Shown here piece by piece: positions 6,969-53,160 of a stretch of DNA of 64,000 bases. Position 1 is the stretch's first letter. The number at the start of each line of letters is the position of its first letter. A model generated the notes under the pieces. The model was not told where the DNA came from. It saw only the letters and a list, made by a program, of their open reading frames with translations, and did not search any database. Source of the stretch: Xylanimonas oleitrophica (GTDB lineage Bacteria > Actinomycetota > Actinomycetes > Actinomycetales > Cellulomonadaceae); assembly GCF_003244315.1 (NCBI RefSeq), contig NZ_QKWH01000005.1, positions 62,001-126,000 on the forward strand. The letters run 5' to 3'. The translations under genes and the position numbers were made by a program.

Positions 6969-8759
6969 TCAGGCCTGCATGTCGACGAAGCGCGAATAGT
7001 GACCCTGGAACGCGACGGTGATGGTGTCGGTAGGACCGTTACGGTGCTTGGCCACGATGAGGTCGGCCTCGCCCGCGCGCGGGGACTCCTTCTCGTAGGC
7101 GTCCTCACGGTGCAGCAGGATGACCATGTCCGCGTCCTGCTCGATGGAGCCCGATTCACGGAGGTCCGACATCGCCGGCTTCTTGTCGCCGCGCTGCTCC
7201 GGGCCACGGTTCAGCTGCGACAGCGCGATGACGGGAACCTCGAGCTCCTTGGCGAGCAGCTTGAGCGCACGCGAGAACTCCGAGACCTCCTGCTGACGCG
7301 ACTCGACGCGCTTTCCGGAGGACATGAGCTGGAGGTAGTCGATGACGATCAGCTTGAGGTCGTGCCGCTGCTTGAGGCGTCGCGCCTTCGCGCGGATCTC
7401 CATGAGCGACATGTTGGGCGAGTCGTCGATGAACAGCGGCGCCTCGGAGATCTTGCCCATCACCTTGGCGAGCTTCTGCCAGTCGTCCTCGGCCATGTTG
7501 CCGTTGCGCAGCTTCTGCAGGTGCACGCGCGCCTCGGCCGAGAGGAGTCGCATGGTGATCTCGTTGCGGCTCATCTCCAGGGAGAAGACGACGGCCGTCT
7601 GCCCGTGCCTGACGGCCGCCGCACGTGCGATGTCGATGGCGAAGGTCGAGTTGTGCGTCGGGATCATCGCCCGGCTCGCCAGATACAGGTGCTCGTCGTT
7701 GTCGACCTGGACGCACCGGACGGGCACCGAGTCGATGGGGCGCACATCGACGATCTTCCACACAGCGGAATCGGTCGAGACGGTGTGAGCGACGCCAGCA
7801 TCCATCGATCGCACGATGTCAGCCGTCGTGCGGACCTCCGCGTCGAGGCGCGACCCACTGGTGCTCGTGACCCACTGGTGCTCCGCGTCGGCGACGATCG
7901 TGGTGCCGTCGTCGAACACCACCTCGTAGCAGGGGCGGCCGTGCATGACCTCGGTCACGGCAGTCACTGTCGTGGGGCGGCCGTCGGCGCCGAGCAGCCG
8001 GTCCCCTGCTGCGACCTCACCCATCGTCGTCCACCCCGACGGGGTGGGCAGCGCGGTGTCGAGGGCCAGCGCCTTGCCGATGGCCGGGCGGGCGGCGATG
8101 ACGATCATCTGGCCGGGGTGGAGGCCGTTCGTCAGCCGGTCGAGGTCCGCGAACCCGGTGGGCACACCCGTCATGCCCTCGCCGCGGTGCCCCGCGGCCT
8201 CGATCTCGTCCATCGTGCCGCCGATGATCTCGGACAGCGGCAGGTAGTCCTCGGTGGTGCGCCGCTCGGTGACGGCGTAGATCTCGGCCTGCGCGTTGTT
8301 GACGATGTCGTCGACGTCGCCGCCCTCGGTGGCGTACCCGAGCTGCACGATGCGGGTGCCGGCCTCGACCAGGCGGCGCAGCACGGCGCGCTCGCGCACG
8401 ATGCGGGCGTAGTAGCCGGCGTTGGCGGCGGTGGGGACACCGGCCATGAGGTCGTGGAGGTAGGGCGCGCCGCCGATGCGCCCCAGCTCGCCGCGCTTCT
8501 GCAGCTCGGCGGCCACGGTGATGGCGTCGGCCGGCTCGCCCCGACCGTAGAGGTCGATGATCGCGTCGTAGATCGTCTCGTGCGCCGGCCGGTAGAAGTC
8601 GTTGCCACGGATGACCTCGACGACGTCGGCGATCGCGTCCTTGCTCAGCAGCATGCCGCCGAGCACGCTCATCTCGGCGTTGACGTCCTGTGGCGGGGTA
8701 CGGTCGAACGCGGCACCAGACCCCCCGTTGTATGAGGTCTCGAGCTCTTCGACCGACAT
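6969..8759 (-). CDS. dnaB: Replicative DNA helicase DnaB containing an intein
   Basis: 596-aa precursor; 455 aa remain after removal of a 141-residue intein (230-370). Hexameric 5'-3' helicase of the replication fork. The N-terminal domain starts PPQDVNAEMSVLGGMLLS. The RecA-like domain follows, with Walker A split as ARPAIGK|ST, then LKLIVIDYLQLM (Walker B) and SQLNRGPEQR. The precursor cannot form an intact P-loop before splicing. ATG 8759 is preferred to the in-frame GTG 8831, because the extra 24 residues are Arg-rich and unlike DnaB and the GTG has no RBS. It is convergent with the response regulator. The upstream region carries a DnaA-box-like array. Confidence 0.95.
   Translation of the reverse strand: MSVEELETSYNGGSGAAFDRTPPQDVNAEMSVLGGMLLSKDAIADVVEVIRGNDFYRPAHETIYDAIIDLYGRGEPADAITVAAELQKRGELGRIGGAPYLHDLMAGVPTAANAGYYARIVRERAVLRRLVEAGTRIVQLGYATEGGDVDDIVNNAQAEIYAVTERRTTEDYLPLSEIIGGTMDEIEAAGHRGEGMTGVPTGFADLDRLTNGLHPGQMIVIAARPAIGKALALDTALPTPSGWTTMGEVAAGDRLLGADGRPTTVTAVTEVMHGRPCYEVVFDDGTTIVADAEHQWVTSTSGSRLDAEVRTTADIVRSMDAGVAHTVSTDSAVWKIVDVRPIDSVPVRCVQVDNDEHLYLASRAMIPTHNSTFAIDIARAAAVRHGQTAVVFSLEMSRNEITMRLLSAEARVHLQKLRNGNMAEDDWQKLAKVMGKISEAPLFIDDSPNMSLMEIRAKARRLKQRHDLKLIVIDYLQLMSSGKRVESRQQEVSEFSRALKLLAKELEVPVIALSQLNRGPEQRGDKKPAMSDLRESGSIEQDADMVILLHREDAYEKESPRAGEADLIVAKHRNGPTDTITVAFQGHYSRFVDMQA
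7650..8072 (-). other. Class-3-like mini-intein inside DnaB Walker A
   Basis: 141 residues from ALALDTALPTPSGW to AMIPTHN, followed by Ser as +1 residue. Joining the flanks restores AARPAIGKSTFAI, a normal Walker A. The usual Cys/Ser at position 1 is Ala. Instead Trp67 (block B, EHQW), Cys120 (block F, VRCVQVD) and Thr139 (block G, PTHN) are present, the WCT set that defines class 3 inteins. No LAGLIDADG or HNH endonuclease fits in 141 residues, so it is a minimal splicing element. Class assignment is from motif reading. Confidence 0.92.
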
Positions 8760-8875
8760 CCTGTGCCCCGCCCCCGTCTGTGCCGTCCGCCCTGTTCGTC
8801 GTGGCCTCGTTCTACCGTGGACCACCGACACCCGCGACGACGCTAGGCGCGCTCACCGACCTGGTCAACGCGTCT

Positions 8876-8975
8876 TGTGGACAGGGGTGTGGACAACGAT
8901 GTGGACGGCCCCGCGATGGCTGTGCACAGTACGTGGACAACCATGTGCACAACTGGGGACATCCCCTGTGTACAA
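8876..8975. promoter_or_regulatory. Phased array of seven DnaA-box-like 9-mers
   Basis: Seven 9-mers in one orientation match TGTGGACAA (the complement of TTGTCCACA): 8876 TGTGGACAG, 8888 TGTGGACAA (perfect), 8900 TGTGGACGG, 8921 TGTGCACAG, 8932 CGTGGACAA, 8944 TGTGCACAA, 8967 TGTGTACAA. Steps are 12, 12, 21, 11, 12 and 23 bp, about one or two helical turns. Inverted copies occur at 9115 and 9128 in the 5' end of the MATE gene. The array lies between the divergent dnaB and MATE genes, about 39 kb from oriC. Confidence 0.7.
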
Positions 8976-9043
8976 GCCCCTTTCAGGGCCGTGACCTGGG
9001 GAAATACTGCCCTCAGCCTGTGGAGGAAAAGAAGGTGGGTGAG

Positions 9044-10471
9044 ATGCGCCGCACGCCCGGCAGCACACCGGAGGATGCCGCTCCGAGCACCGGCGGCGAC
9101 ACCGCCCCGGCTCGTCGTCCACAGGCTCCGTCCACAGGGGGTGCACAACCCGGTCGTCGCTCCTCGATCGACCGGGAGATCCTCGCCCTCGCCCTGCCGG
9201 CGCTGGGTGCCCTGGTGGCCGAGCCGCTGTTCGTGCTCGTCGACTCCGCCGTCGTCGGGCACCTGGGCACACCGCAGCTCGCCGGGCTCTCGCTCGCCTC
9301 GAACCTGCTGCTCCTGATCGTGGGCCTGTGCGTGTTCCTCGCGTACGCCACCACGGCTGCCGTCGCTCGCCTCACCGGCGCCGGACGCCTCCGCGAAGCG
9401 CTCCAGTCGGGCGTCGACGGCATGTGGCTCGCGCTCGGCCTGGGCGTCGCGCTCGCCGCCCTCCTGTGGGCAGCGGCGCCCTGGGCCACCGCCGCGCTCG
9501 GCGGCACCGGCGACGTCGCCACCCACGCCGTCACCTACCTGCGCTGGTCCGCGCCCGGCCTGCCCGGCATGCTCCTCGTGCTCGCCGCCACCGGCGTGCT
9601 GCGCGGCCTCAAGGACACCCGCACGCCCCTGGTCGTCGCCTCGACCGGGGCTGTCGTCAACGGGATCGTCAACGTGCTCCTCGTGTACGGCGCCGGCATG
9701 GGCATCGCCGGCTCCGGCCTCGGCACCGCTCTCGTGCAGCTCGCGATGGGCGCCACGCTCGTCGCCGTCGTCGTGCGTGGCGCCCGCCGGCACGGCGCCT
9801 CGCTGCGCCCCGCGGCAGGCGGCATCTGGGCCAACGCGGTGGCCGGCCTCCCGCTGTTCGTCCGCACCGTCTCGCTGCGGCTCGCCATCCTGCTCACCGT
9901 CGCCGTCGCCACCCGCCTCGGCGACGTCGCCCTGGCCGGGCACCAGGTCGTCAACAGCCTGTGGGGGCTCGCCGCCTTCGCCCTCGACGCCCTCGCCATC
10001 GCCGCCCAGGCGCTGGTGGGCCACGGCCTCGGCTCTGGCGACATCGCCCGGGTCCGTGCCGTCCTCTCCCGCTGCCTGCGGTGGGGCGTCGGCGCGGGCG
10101 CCGTGATCGGCGTCGTGCTCGCCGGGGCCGGATGGTGGATCGCTCCCCTGTTCACCTCCGACGACGGCGTGCGCACCGCCGTCGCCACCGGCCTCGTCGT
10201 CTGCGGCCTGCTCATGCCCATGGCCGGCTGGGTGTTCGTGCTCGACGGGGTCCTCATCGGCGCCGGCGACGGCCGCTACCTGGCCTGGGCGGGGATGCTC
10301 ACCCTCGTCGTCTACGTGCCCGCCGCGCTGGCCGTGGCCGCCTGGGCGCCTGGGGGCGCCGCCGGCCTCGCCTGGCTCTGGGCCGCGTTCACCGGCGTCT
10401 TCATGGCCGCTCGCGCCCTCACCACCGGGCTCCGCGCCCGCGGGACCCGGTGGATGGTCACGGGCGCGTGA
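9044..10471 (+). CDS. MATE-family efflux transporter (DinF-like)
   Basis: 475 aa, about 12 membrane helices. Cation-coupled drug or metabolite exporter. The conserved core begins at REILALALPALGALVAEPLF and continues with VDSAVVGHLGTPQLAGLSLA, typical of DinF-type MATE proteins. The first 45 residues are low-complexity and polar, and the DNA there also contains DnaA-box-like sequences. ATG 9044 has GAAGGTGG 6 nt upstream. GTG 9035, with GGAGG 8 nt upstream, is an equally good start and adds three residues. Confidence 0.9.
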   Translation: MRRTPGSTPEDAAPSTGGDTAPARRPQAPSTGGAQPGRRSSIDREILALALPALGALVAEPLFVLVDSAVVGHLGTPQLAGLSLASNLLLLIVGLCVFLAYATTAAVARLTGAGRLREALQSGVDGMWLALGLGVALAALLWAAAPWATAALGGTGDVATHAVTYLRWSAPGLPGMLLVLAATGVLRGLKDTRTPLVVASTGAVVNGIVNVLLVYGAGMGIAGSGLGTALVQLAMGATLVAVVVRGARRHGASLRPAAGGIWANAVAGLPLFVRTVSLRLAILLTVAVATRLGDVALAGHQVVNSLWGLAAFALDALAIAAQALVGHGLGSGDIARVRAVLSRCLRWGVGAGAVIGVVLAGAGWWIAPLFTSDDGVRTAVATGLVVCGLLMPMAGWVFVLDGVLIGAGDGRYLAWAGMLTLVVYVPAALAVAAWAPGGAAGLAWLWAAFTGVFMAARALTTGLRARGTRWMVTGA

Positions 10472-46040: not shown

Positions 46041-46525
46041 GAGGTGCTCCAAGAAACGTCGGGTCGGGGGGCACGCCGCCCGACGCGGGTCGACTGTGCA
46101 GGTCCTGGTGACCGGCTTCCTGAGCTTGGCGCCCGAGCGGAGGACCGGCCGTGCGCTCCGAGGTTTCCGGCGCCCGGTCGAGGGCGCGCGAAAGTACCTG
46201 GAACGGCTGTATGACGTTACGCGATGGGAGGCCGTGAGGTCAAACCCGGTCGAGTCTGCCTACGATGGCACGCACCGGACGCGCCACGTCGCAGCCGCCG
46301 CGGCGTGTCCGCGGGGCCCCCGCCGCAGAAGAGGATGCACGTCACTCTCCTGATCGGCAGATTCCACAGGTTGTGGAGAACTTTGTGGACGAAGATGTCG
46401 GGTAGCTGCCCGGCGTGACACACTCCCAGTCTCACCTGCCGTGCGCACCCGAGCCCCGGGCCGGCCACCGGACCACGGCGCAGGACGACCAGACGAGCAC
46501 ACAGCGAGACGAAGGAGCGCCGGCG
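46041..46525. promoter_or_regulatory. rpmH-dnaA divergent promoter region with DnaA boxes
   Basis: 485 bp without a gene. Two DnaA-box-like 9-mers, TGTGGAGAA (46372-46380) and TGTGGACGA (46384-46392), 12 bp apart, lie just before dnaA, consistent with dnaA autoregulation. Promoters for rpmH (minus) and dnaA (plus) must be here; none is clear enough to place. Confidence 0.65.
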
Positions 46526-47941
46526 GTGGCGGACGAGGACATCAACAAGGTCTGGGCCCAGACCCTCGAGGTGCTGGAGCAACGGCCCGACATGACGGCC
46601 CGCCAGCTCGCCTTCATCCGTCTCGCCAAGCCGATGGCGGTGGTGGACGGCAACGCCTTCATCGCCGTCCCCCACGAGCAGACCCGCACGTACCTGGAGA
46701 CGAGCGTGCGCGAGCAGCTCATCTCGGCGATGTCCTCGGTGCTCGGCAGGGACGTCCGGTTCGGTATCACCGTGGACCCGGAGCTCAGCGCGGAGAGCCT
46801 CACCGGCCCGTCGCAGGACTACATCGAGCCGGAGGAGGACGAGGACGACGTCGTCGCGGAGATCCCCGCGCCCGTCCTCCCTCGCCAGCCCCGCCCGTCG
46901 GCCGAGCCCACCCGGCTCAACCCGAAGTACATCTTCGAGACCTTCGTCATCGGTTCGTCCAACCGGTTCGCGCACGCCGCCGCGGTCGCCGTGGCCGAGG
47001 CGCCCGCCAAGGCCTACAACCCGCTGTTCATCTACGGCGACTCGGGCCTGGGCAAGACGCACCTGCTGCACGCCATCGGGCACTACGCCCACAACCTGTA
47101 CCCGCACGTGCGTGTGCGCTACGTGAACTCCGAGGAGTTCACCAACGACTTCATCAACAGCATCGGCGAGGGCAAGGCGGGCGCGTTCCAGCGCCGCTAC
47201 CGCGACGTCGACGTGCTCCTCATCGACGACATCCAGTTCCTCCAGGGCAAGGAACAGACGATGGAGGAGTTCTTCCACACCTTCAACGCGCTCCACAACG
47301 CGAACAAGCAGGTGGTGATCACCTCCGACGTCCCGCCCAAGCAGCTCAACGGGTTCGAGGACCGGCTACGGTCGCGCTTCGAGTGGGGACTGATCACCGA
47401 CGTCCAGCCGCCGGACCTGGAGACGCGCATCGCGATCCTCCGCAAGAAGGCGGCCAGCGAGCGGCTCGACGCCCCGAACGAGGTGCTCAGCTACATCGGG
47501 TCACGCATCTCGACGAACATCCGTGAGCTCGAGGGCGCCCTGATCCGCGTGACGGCGTTCGCGAACCTCAACCGGCAGCAGGTAGACCTGCCGCTGGCGG
47601 AGATCGTGCTGCGCGACCTCATCACGGACGACGACACGACCGAGGTGACACCGGCCATGGTGATCGCCCAGACGGCGGCGTACTTCGGCCTCACGATCGA
47701 GGACCTGTGCGGCACCTCTCGCTCGAGGGTGCTGGTGACCGCGCGGCAGATCGCGATGTACCTGTGCCGCGAGCTGACGGACCTGTCGTTGCCGAAGATC
47801 GGGCAGCAGTTCGGTGGTCGTGACCACACCACGGTGATGCACGCCAACAAGAAGATCGCCGGTCAGATGGCCGAGCGCCGGTCGACCTACAACCAGGTCA
47901 CGGAGCTGACGAGCCGTATCCGGCAGCAGCACCGCGGCTGA
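46526..47941 (+). CDS. dnaA: Chromosomal replication initiator DnaA
   Basis: 471 aa. Domain I starts [15 protein letters not shown]; domain II is short and acidic. Domain III is the AAA+ core with Walker [33 protein letters not shown] and [17 protein letters not shown]. Domain IV carries the DnaA-box-binding signature [19 protein letters not shown] 46526 has GAAGGAG 8 nt upstream; the frame is open upstream to 46415 without an RBS. Confidence 0.97.
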
Positions 47942-47955
47942 TCGTGCGACCCGTG

Positions 47956-47988
47956 AAGCCCCCGCCGGAGACCTTCCGACGGGGGCTT
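47956..47988 (+). terminator. dnaA terminator
   Basis: AAGCCCCCG (47956-47964) pairs with CGGGGGCTT (47980-47988), extended by CGGA/TCCG, and is followed by TTGCCC; 14 nt after the dnaA stop. Confidence 0.8.
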
Positions 47989-48570
47989 TGCCCTCCCTGG
48001 AGCGCCCTGTGGGGACGCCCGGCGCGGTGCGGACATCTGTGCACAAGTGCCGATCCACACCCTTGTACACAACGAGGAGCCTGCCGAACCACGTCAGTGC
48101 GCCGATCCCTCGACGCTGTCCCCACAGGTGTGGACAGCAGATGTGGAAATCTCAGAGCCCCGCGACGCGGTCGCCGTACACACATGTGGACAACCCTGTG
48201 GACAGGTGTGGACACACCTGCCCATCTCTGTGGACTGCAGGTGTACAGACGGTGGACGGCTGTGGGCACGACGAGCCCCGTCCACAGAGGTCCCCAGCTC
48301 ACCCACAACCTCACCCCCAGCGCATCCACATGCGGAATTGGGCTCTGACCTGCACGAACACCCGATTTCCCCATGTTCCACAGCACCGAAGAAGATGACG
48401 ACTGATCTCGAAGAAGGGAATTCACACACCTTCATCAGGCCGACCGGCCGCTGCGGTGCGCACCCCGAGCCCAGACGCTCTCCCGCTCGCTCCGTCCGCC
48501 CTGACCACGCTCAGATGTGAGCCGAGATGTGGACAGCCGAGTCGACGTGCCGCCTCACGCTCGACTCGCG
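47989..48570. other. Replication origin oriC (dnaA-dnaN intergenic)
   Basis: About 580 bp dense in DnaA boxes. Matches to TGTGGACAA: 48185 (perfect), 48129, 48197, 48207, 48229, 48142, 48528 and TGTGCACAA at 48038; opposite strand TTGTACACA at 48063 and several TCCACA motifs at about 48280-48380. Several are 10-13 bp apart. The stretch 48360-48430 is the most A/T-rich and may be the unwinding element. Position between dnaA and dnaN is the standard actinobacterial origin. Confidence 0.93.
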
Positions 48571-48576
48571 TAGGGT
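48571..48576 (+). promoter_or_regulatory. dnaN -10 element
   Basis: TAGGGT 49 bp before the dnaN start, giving a short leader that contains the RBS GAGGGAG. Confidence 0.5.
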
Positions 48577-48625
48577 TCGGTCTGTCCGCCGTCGTCCGAC
48601 GTGCCTTGAGACCTGAGGGAGTGGG

Positions 48626-49759
48626 ATGAAGTTCCGGGTTGAGCGTGACGTCCTGGCCGATGCCGTGACCTGGACCGCACGCACCCTCCCCACGCGCCCG
48701 CCAGCTCCCGTCCTCGCCGGCGTCCGGATCGAGGCGGACCCGTCAGGAGTCATCGGCCTCTCGAGCTTCGACTACGAGGTCTCCGCACGCTCGGAGATCC
48801 CGGCAGAGGTCGCCGAGCCCGGCACGGTCCTCGTCTCGGGCCGCCTCCTCGCGGAGATCGCCCGTGCGCTCCCCCACAAGCCTGTGGACGTCACGCTGGA
48901 GGGCACCAAGGTCGTGGTGACCTGCGGTGCCTCGCGGTTCACGCTGCTGACGATGCCCGTCGAGGACTACCCGACGCTGCCGCAGATGCCCGAGCTGTCG
49001 GGCACCGTCTCGGGCGACGCCCTGACCCACGCCGTCGCGCAGGTGTCCGTGGCTGCCAGCCGCGACGAGACGCTCCCGCTGCTGACCGGTGTCCGCATGG
49101 AGATCGAGGGGGAGCGCATCACGCTCCTGTCGACCGACCGCTACCGCCTCGCGCTGCGCGAGCTGACCTGGACGCCCACGACGCCGGACTTCTCCGCGGT
49201 CGCGCTGGTCAAGGCCCGCACCCTCACGGACGTCGCCAAGTCGCTCGGCAGCGGCGGCGGCCTGGTCAACATCGGCCTGTCCACGGGCAACGGCCTGGAC
49301 CTCATCGGCTTCGAGGCGGGGGGTCGCCACACGACGTCCCAGCTCGTCGACGGGGACTACCCCGCCGTGCGTCGCCTGTTCCCCGACGCGACGCCGATCC
49401 ACGCCGTCGTGCCGACGCAGGCGCTGATCGACGCAGCCCGCCGCGTCGCGCTGGTCGCGGAGCGCAACACGCCCATCCGGCTCGCCTTCACCGACGGCCA
49501 GGTGGTGCTCGACGCCGGCCAGGGCGACGACGCGCAGGCGTCCGAGGCGCTCGAGGCCGTGCTCGTGGGCGAGGACATCACCGTGGCGTTCAACCCGCAG
49601 TTCCTGCTCGACGGGCTCACGGCCCTGGGGACGGACTTCACGCGCCTGTCGTTCACGCACCCGAACAAGCCCGTCGAGTTCACCGGCCAGGAGTCGCTGG
49701 ACGGCGAGGACTCCTCGGAGTACCGCTACCTGTTGGTCCCCATCCGCTTCGCCGGCTGA
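48626..49759 (+). CDS. dnaN: DNA polymerase III beta subunit (sliding clamp)
   Basis: 377 aa. Three similar domains; start MKFRVERDVLADAVTWTART, and RDETLPLLTGVRMEIEGERITLLSTDRYRLA in the second domain, end YRYLLVPIRFAG-like. Encircles DNA as the polymerase clamp. RBS GAGGGAG 4 nt before ATG. Confidence 0.97.
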   Translation: MKFRVERDVLADAVTWTARTLPTRPPAPVLAGVRIEADPSGVIGLSSFDYEVSARSEIPAEVAEPGTVLVSGRLLAEIARALPHKPVDVTLEGTKVVVTCGASRFTLLTMPVEDYPTLPQMPELSGTVSGDALTHAVAQVSVAASRDETLPLLTGVRMEIEGERITLLSTDRYRLALRELTWTPTTPDFSAVALVKARTLTDVAKSLGSGGGLVNIGLSTGNGLDLIGFEAGGRHTTSQLVDGDYPAVRRLFPDATPIHAVVPTQALIDAARRVALVAERNTPIRLAFTDGQVVLDAGQGDDAQASEALEAVLVGEDITVAFNPQFLLDGLTALGTDFTRLSFTHPNKPVEFTGQESLDGEDSSEYRYLLVPIRFAG

Positions 49760-52813: not shown

Positions 52814-53160
52814 CTCGTGGGCAAGCGCCGTCCACACTGCTGTGGACGACTGTCCATACATGTGGAGAACCTTGTGGACAACCGGTGTCTCCTCGTCATC
52901 CGACCCCCTTTCAATCCCAGGTTGTGGGGCCCGAGAAGGTAGACTGGGCAGGTCATCCACGGGCCTCGGCAGGCCCTGTCGGCGCAGCGATCCCGAGGCC
53001 TTCCCAGACCCGATCCGTGCCCGGCGGGAGCAGGTCGTCGCACGGGGTGGCAGCACCGACCCGCGGTCCGCCGGCTCACGTCGCCGGACTCTCGCCGCGG
53101 CCTGGGCACAGGGCCTGGGACCCGTTCGGTGCGTGTGGACGACGAGGAGCGAACCGGCCT
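52814..53160. promoter_or_regulatory. gyrB upstream region with DnaA-box-like sites
   Basis: 347 bp without a gene. TGTGGACGA (52841), TGTGGAGAA (52861) and a perfect TGTGGACAA (52873-52881) lie 20 and 12 bp apart in one orientation. The gyrB promoter is presumably downstream of them but no element is convincing. GAGGAG at 53143-53148 is the nearest RBS to the gyrB GTG. Confidence 0.65.

Follow-up and report, generated by a model that had tools for sequence, protein, structure and literature searches.

In the 64-kb stretch of DNA analysed here (the window), seven DnaA boxes form a helically phased array upstream of dnaB, which probably serves as a DnaA-controlled transcription switch: DnaA would assemble on one face of the DNA and activate dnaB. 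The boxes, a promoter-like motif, the fixed register between them and the conservation of the arrangement are directly observed, in a region laid out as follows.

6969 to 8759, minus strand: dnaB, replicative helicase (ATG at 8759 taken as the start; Pfam match)
7650 to 8069, minus strand: putative mini-intein, an in-frame insert of ~140 residues in the DnaB P-loop, boundaries approximate
8809 to 8830, minus strand: predicted second promoter motif P2, TGTCGG-N10-TAGAAC, near the PafBC DNA-damage motif
8840 to 8868, minus strand: predicted dnaB promoter P1, TTGACC-N17-TAGCGT, from a motif search
8876 to 8975, minus strand: helically phased DnaA-box array, from box scan, conservation and phase
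8876 to 8884, minus strand: promoter-proximal box CTGTCCACA, 7 bp upstream of the -35 hexamer
8888 to 8896, minus strand: perfect box TTGTCCACA, 19 bp upstream of the -35 hexamer
8992 to 9024, minus strand: conserved element E, TCCACA-N20-CAGGTCA (a relaxed copy of TCCACA-N19-GCAGGTCAG), on the far side of the array
9044 to 10471, plus strand: MATE-family exporter, the divergent neighbour (ATG at 9044, in-frame GTG at 9035 possible; Pfam match)
9115 to 9136, plus strand: two opposite-strand box-like 9-mers (9115 and 9128) within the MATE reading frame

The initial annotation, made from the sequence alone, had described seven same-strand 9-mers within 100 bp, spaced by 11–12 or 21–23 bp, between dnaB and a MATE exporter. 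Positions and spacings are as claimed, and Pfam matches confirm both genes. The 9-mers, which resemble TGTGGACAA, start on the plus strand at 8876, 8888, 8900, 8921, 8932, 8944 and 8967, with successive spacings of 12, 12, 21, 11, 12 and 23 bp; five depart from TGTGGACAA by at most one base and those at 8900 and 8921 by two. Read on the minus strand they resemble TTGTCCACA and point toward dnaB; TTGTCCACA is listed as a high-affinity box for M. tuberculosis and S. coelicolor (PMC4285127). The inverted copies at 9115 and 9128 are likewise present, with one and two mismatches, respectively.

The array is dense. The window holds 23 sites with at most one mismatch, versus 5.84 in shuffles. With at most two mismatches, and with both strands read and palindromic sites counted twice, there are 10 sites per 100 bp in the array versus 6 at oriC, in agreement with the earlier claim that box density equals or exceeds that of the origin, and 7 in the recF-gyrB gap, where another DnaA-box cluster is found (52816 to 52881, plus 53134 and 53298). 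Genome-wide statements rest on pattern searches, in which TGTGGACAA with at most one mismatch occurs 220 times, versus 167 for the reversed control. At the density of these 220 sites, the Poisson expectation for site-anchored 100-bp windows with at least five sites is 1e-8 over the genome. A pair scan (TGTGNACR-N2..30-TGTGNACR) gave 18 matches versus 3 in the reversed control, 3 of the 18 at oriC and 7 in the dnaB-MATE region, these 7 including one place on both strands and an opposite pair near 9116 to 9136; a triple-box scan of the same genome gave 9 matches versus none in the control.

Comparison with related genera, proposed as a check in the initial annotation, shows that the boxes have been kept with dnaB. 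Among the 29 genomes searched, this one included, dnaB was detected in 28; the triple-box pattern gave 120 matches versus 10 in controls (table summed), and by hand comparison 18 of the 29 have a match immediately upstream of dnaB. We then counted boxes with at most one mismatch to TTGTCCACA or TTATCCACA in the 450 bp upstream of dnaB, a count in which palindromic boxes score twice and which gives 6 for the present genome. Eighteen genomes of the same family average 4.44 boxes, with at least three in 16 and a single box in each of the other two; together with two genomes from other families of the order (L026 and L027, with 5 and 4 boxes) they make up the 20 loci L022 to L041. Seven further genomes of the order average 3.57 boxes, and no box was found upstream of two same-order dnaB genes (L044 and L045). 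The 22 named loci, grouped by title as Promicromonosporaceae, Cellulomonadaceae and near relatives and including three that duplicate loci already counted, average 3.91 (0.10 in shuffles), with at least three boxes in 17. The present locus, the 20 loci and the named loci constitute what we call the family set (43 loci, or 40 after removal of the three duplicates). Farther afield, the mean is 2.78 for Kineococcus and other loci (n = 9), 5.69 for Arthrobacter and allies (n = 13; shuffle 0.19) and 3.97 for Streptomycetaceae (n = 36; shuffle 0.08), with at least three boxes in all 13 Arthrobacter-group and all 36 Streptomycetaceae loci. Control windows with at least three boxes were absent from every locus group (0/427 in Streptomycetaceae).

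At the level of the class, for which 60 of 115 genomes with a match were picked to spread over 28 families, at least one box is present in 58 genomes, at least two in 51 and at least three in 38, with none in the remaining two; the mean is 2.97, versus 0.136 in Markov resamples (n = 60). Among phylum members outside the class (40 of 54 genomes with a match), the mean falls to 0.725 versus 0.082, with at least one box in 18 and at least two in 7, and the array is therefore largely a trait of the class Actinomycetes. At class level, 142 of 178 boxes face dnaB; one-way facing is nevertheless not general, because only 32 of 74 do so in Arthrobacter and allies. Boxes thus stand above chance upstream of the gene, as in a DnaA-regulated promoter, and what has been conserved is probably a regulatory region of dnaB rather than a stand-alone site for titrating DnaA.

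The helical phasing noted for the single array recurs in all four sets with a period near 11 bp. For distances between dnaB-facing boxes, which within one array are mutually dependent, the best period is 11.0 bp both in the family set (mean cosine 0.70 over 237 pairs) and in the class (0.65 over 130 pairs), 11.1 bp in Streptomycetaceae (0.85) and 10.9 bp in Arthrobacter (0.92 over 26 pairs). When box positions were moved by up to 7 bp, the observed value was reached in none of 300 runs for each of the four sets, and in a sample reduced to a single genome per family (28 families) the mean cosine was 0.665 at 11.0 bp (49 pairs; 0/500 null runs). Spacing by about one turn would fit a DnaA filament: for boxes at oriC, a spacing change by a full turn is reported to be tolerated and one by a partial turn not (PMC4285127).

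The phase is tied to a predicted promoter. Of all TTG-N19..21-TANNNT motifs in the 64 kb, P1 alone has a DnaA box (at most one mismatch) within 100 bp upstream, and boxes of the window stand 7, 19, 63, 75 and 98 bp upstream of its -35 hexamer. A search blind to the boxes (TTGNNN-N16..18-TANNNT) found the pattern in 29 of 40 family-set regions. With spacers of 17–18, it is present in 29/40 family-set, 25/60 class, 36/36 Streptomycetaceae and 12/13 Arthrobacter regions, versus 0/40, 1/60 and 1/36 in reverse-complement controls of the first three and 1/60 for the class read backwards. The pattern is absent from 35 of the 60 class regions, and no box lies within 30 bp of the candidate promoter in seven class and five family-set cases. 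Distances from dnaB-facing boxes to the -35 hexamer form a ladder near 7, 18–19, 30, 41, 63, 74 and 85 bp (7 + 11k). For the family set (94 distances) the phase is 7.8 bp and R at 11 bp is 0.87, and for the class (52 distances) the values are 7.4 bp and 0.85; a uniform null reached neither R in 2,000 runs. In Streptomycetaceae, a reverse box stands 5 bp from the -35 hexamer in 36 of 36 regions. The boxes hold a fixed position relative to the predicted promoter, ending before the -35 hexamer without overlapping -35 or -10.

In our judgement DnaA very probably binds the array in this species, and DnaA control of dnaB transcription appears probable. DnaA, probably in the ATP form, would bind the boxes cooperatively and, since these are spaced by about one DNA turn, its molecules would stack on one face of the DNA. 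Because the boxes are set back from the -35 hexamer by 7 + 11k bp, clear of the core promoter, the filament would end beside RNA polymerase and most likely activate it. More active DnaA would then yield more helicase, the enzyme that DnaA must load at oriC. That the effect is activation is a reading that we moderately favor, for this geometry and for a single mutant in mycobacteria. There, DnaA binding to the dnaB upstream region is reported in vitro for M. tuberculosis and in vivo for M. smegmatis, and a DnaA mutant with reduced binding at this place under-expresses dnaB (PMC7738170), which favors activation. If the whole reading is true, helicase supply is set, through a conserved geometry, by the same protein that opens the origin and must load the helicase there.

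The initial annotation had placed the array far from oriC and offered titration of DnaA, its reactivation or coupling to dnaB expression as roles. The distance is correct: dnaA (46415 to 47941) and dnaN (48626 to 49759), both confirmed by Pfam, flank the gap taken as oriC (47942 to 48625), and the array lies 39 kb away, outside the dnaA/dnaN neighborhood. The word far is misleading, as 39 kb within a 3.49-Mb genome is origin-proximal, and the distance between dnaA and dnaB is 22–144 kb in all but one of the 28 genomes in which it was measured by hand, out of 35 searched (the other seven had rounded lengths only), the exception being G028 at ~267 kb. With dnaB so consistently origin-proximal, the distance to oriC is uninformative as a discriminator between titration and regulation. 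Of the offered roles, coupling of DnaA to dnaB expression is well supported by the register, the conservation across the class and the mycobacterial binding.

An array whose main function is to soak up or inactivate DnaA after origin-proximal duplication, in the manner of datA and with the adjacency of dnaB being secondary, could also be dense and near the origin, as this one is, and a datA-like cluster has been reported in S. coelicolor (PMC5742627). Titration, however, requires no promoter register, whereas the register is tight in the family set, the class and Streptomycetaceae and recurs at a second, unrelated promoter described below, so that we regard titration as an unlikely main role; it may, like datA-like action, be a side effect. 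Repression of dnaB, with a filament at high ATP-DnaA blocking polymerase, has a precedent in E. coli nrdAB, where DnaA can activate or repress and acts either way at one promoter (PMC8203912); it is quite improbable here, considering that no box reaches as far as the -35 hexamer and that the mycobacterial mutant with weaker binding at dnaB yields less dnaB transcript (PMC7738170). A role in reactivating DnaA in the manner of a DARS, or as an accessory origin or a site for loading helicase, might be suspected from the box density above that of oriC and from E and a short A/T-rich stretch at the far array edge in many relatives (by eye), but is scarcely credible: the box phase follows the promoter, and the seven boxes lie on one strand (palindromic TGTGCACA boxes being readable on either), unlike the three-box DARS core, in which box I faces the other way from II and III (PMC5742627).

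The divergent MATE gene was also considered as the main regulated gene and rejected, because the array persists in Arthrobacter (13/13) with no MATE match in the upstream DNA examined. As for dnaB, an alternative in-frame GTG at 8831 would fall at the edge of P2. Many relatives match DnaB residues 1–230 and 371–596 without the mini-intein-like insert, the first residue of which is Ala and not Cys, as in class 3 inteins. A second, diverged DnaB-like helicase gene is present elsewhere in the genome (G000:C11:517105-518322), with 46% and 36% identity in two stretches.

Two further elements flank the arrangement. The PafBC motif is given as TGTCGG-N10-TA-N3-T, and dnaB is partly PafBC-dependent in M. 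tuberculosis (PMC8151990). P2 ends in TAGAAC, its last base departing from the T of the motif, and a relaxed form of the motif is found at 28 of the 43 loci of the family set (a raw count that includes three duplicates). The PafBC-like motif downstream of P1 suggests a second, damage-responsive dnaB promoter. Some relatives carry a LexA-like GAAC-N4-GT[AT]C overlapping the PafBC-like motif. On the far side, E (TCCACA with at most one mismatch, N18–21, GCAGGTCAG with at most two) is present in 35/36 Streptomycetaceae, 8/13 Arthrobacter, 30/60 class and 28/43 family-set loci, with at most one occurrence per group on the opposite strand; in many relatives a short A/T-rich stretch accompanies it (by eye). 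In its N18–20 form, it occurs in 36 of 118 class genomes, at dnaB and elsewhere, and E is not a dnaB-only element: none of eight E loci examined away from dnaB has a dnaB or MATE match. In the present genome, a DnaA-box cluster adjoins an E-like motif at G000:C23:192202.

The eight E loci led to a second locus, without dnaB or MATE, in other genomes of the class. Eleven such loci, eight reached through E and three through an RNA pattern, each carry an E-like motif, DnaA boxes and a TTGA...TA promoter motif, followed by a hairpin of ~80–95 nt.

L236 to L246 and L253 to L276 (other genomes), e.g., L253:1501-1588 on the plus strand: candidate structured RNA

The GC-rich hairpin loop, AAGGGGAAG, is identical in 31 of 31 sense rows, although the first loci were chosen by this loop. 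In the alignment of the eleven loci, 9 of 21 pairs show compensatory change. Pairing in a larger alignment, which was fitted to the model and in which 8 of 39 rows are antisense of the same loci, is 94.4%; shuffles give 85.7% and slid versions no more than 51%. A covariance model matched the hairpin in 68 of 196 class genomes. Neither this genome nor its order carries it by these searches: a strict pattern was found in 0 of 59 genomes, the present one included, and the 68 genomes with covariance-model matches, a set from which stricter filters lose weak matches, comprise none of this order. The cluster at G000:C23:192202 is probably no copy of the locus, having DnaA boxes and an E-like motif only, with no YgjP-like match and no P1-pattern promoter with a box within 100 bp in its surroundings. 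Rfam gave no match overlapping the hairpin in 15 loci, and such a strong hairpin could instead be a terminator. Of 30 RNA loci, 29 have a match to a YgjP-like metallopeptidase gene (Pfam), which in five of the 29 lies solely at the distant end of the locus, over 1.2 kb from the RNA. At L236, the divergent neighbor leftward of the RNA is not YgjP-like, and its N-terminus resembles PolX/PHP-type proteins (by eye). A c-di-AMP riboswitch-like match was seen at L234:744-849 (plus strand; 36.6 versus a gathering score of 38 bits).

At 16 loci found by the RNA model alone, at least two boxes stand upstream in 13, with a mean of 2.31 versus 0.08 (0.12 downstream). The promoter motif is present in all 16 and E in only 5, which makes E a weak candidate for a fixed partner of the array. 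Forward boxes occur at 13 loci, and at 8 of these the closest one is 18 bp away. Over 26 of 30 RNA loci analysed (10 from training genomes; the other four were dropped, being missed by the strict loop pattern), the box phase is 8.0 bp with R of 0.87 (31 distances), the same as at dnaB. The recurrence of the register at an unrelated RNA promoter favors a transcriptional role, and its constancy at two genes that have nothing in common speaks for contact with RNA polymerase or bending of the adjacent DNA. We tentatively suggest that it reflects an actinomycete DnaA promoter code, in which the array docks on RNA polymerase at 7 + 11k bp from the -35 hexamer and a small regulon includes dnaB and, in many lineages outside this order, the hairpin RNA with the AAGGGGAAG loop. 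If so, the level of the initiator is wired both to helicase supply and to a regulatory RNA. With this geometry as a simple guide, one could look for further actinomycete promoters under DnaA control; it has already led to the candidate RNA.

Clusters of DnaA boxes outside oriC have precedents. In S. coelicolor, the clusters D78, H24 and H69 were reportedly proposed to control initiation in a datA-like manner (Smulczyk-Krawczyszyn 2006); they resemble the array in being origin-proximal and outside oriC, and one of them may be the dnaB site. The E. coli clusters datA, which promotes ATP hydrolysis, and DARS1 and DARS2, at which DnaA releases ADP, also lie away from oriC, datA and DARS2 working with IHF and DARS2 also with Fis; they differ in the mixed orientation of the DARS core, and a promoter register does not feature in the description available of them (PMC5742627). 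In Caulobacter, predicted DnaA boxes upstream of dnaB, as cited in PMC8203912, place dnaB in the DnaA regulon, as proposed here, in a proteobacterium. Another precedent is the Rv0057-dnaB site of Mycobacterium, where DnaA binds ahead of dnaB in a member of this class; the description of it, in the portions available, mentions neither a phased array nor a promoter register (PMC7738170). In the literature accessible to us, which covers few subscription journals, we found no actinomycete dnaB for which such a phased array has been described. DnaA action at dnaB is thus of a kind already known, since binding has been published for mycobacteria (PMC7738170), and what seems to be new is the phased architecture across the class, together with its reuse at a second promoter, which would transcribe a hairpin RNA unmatched in Rfam.
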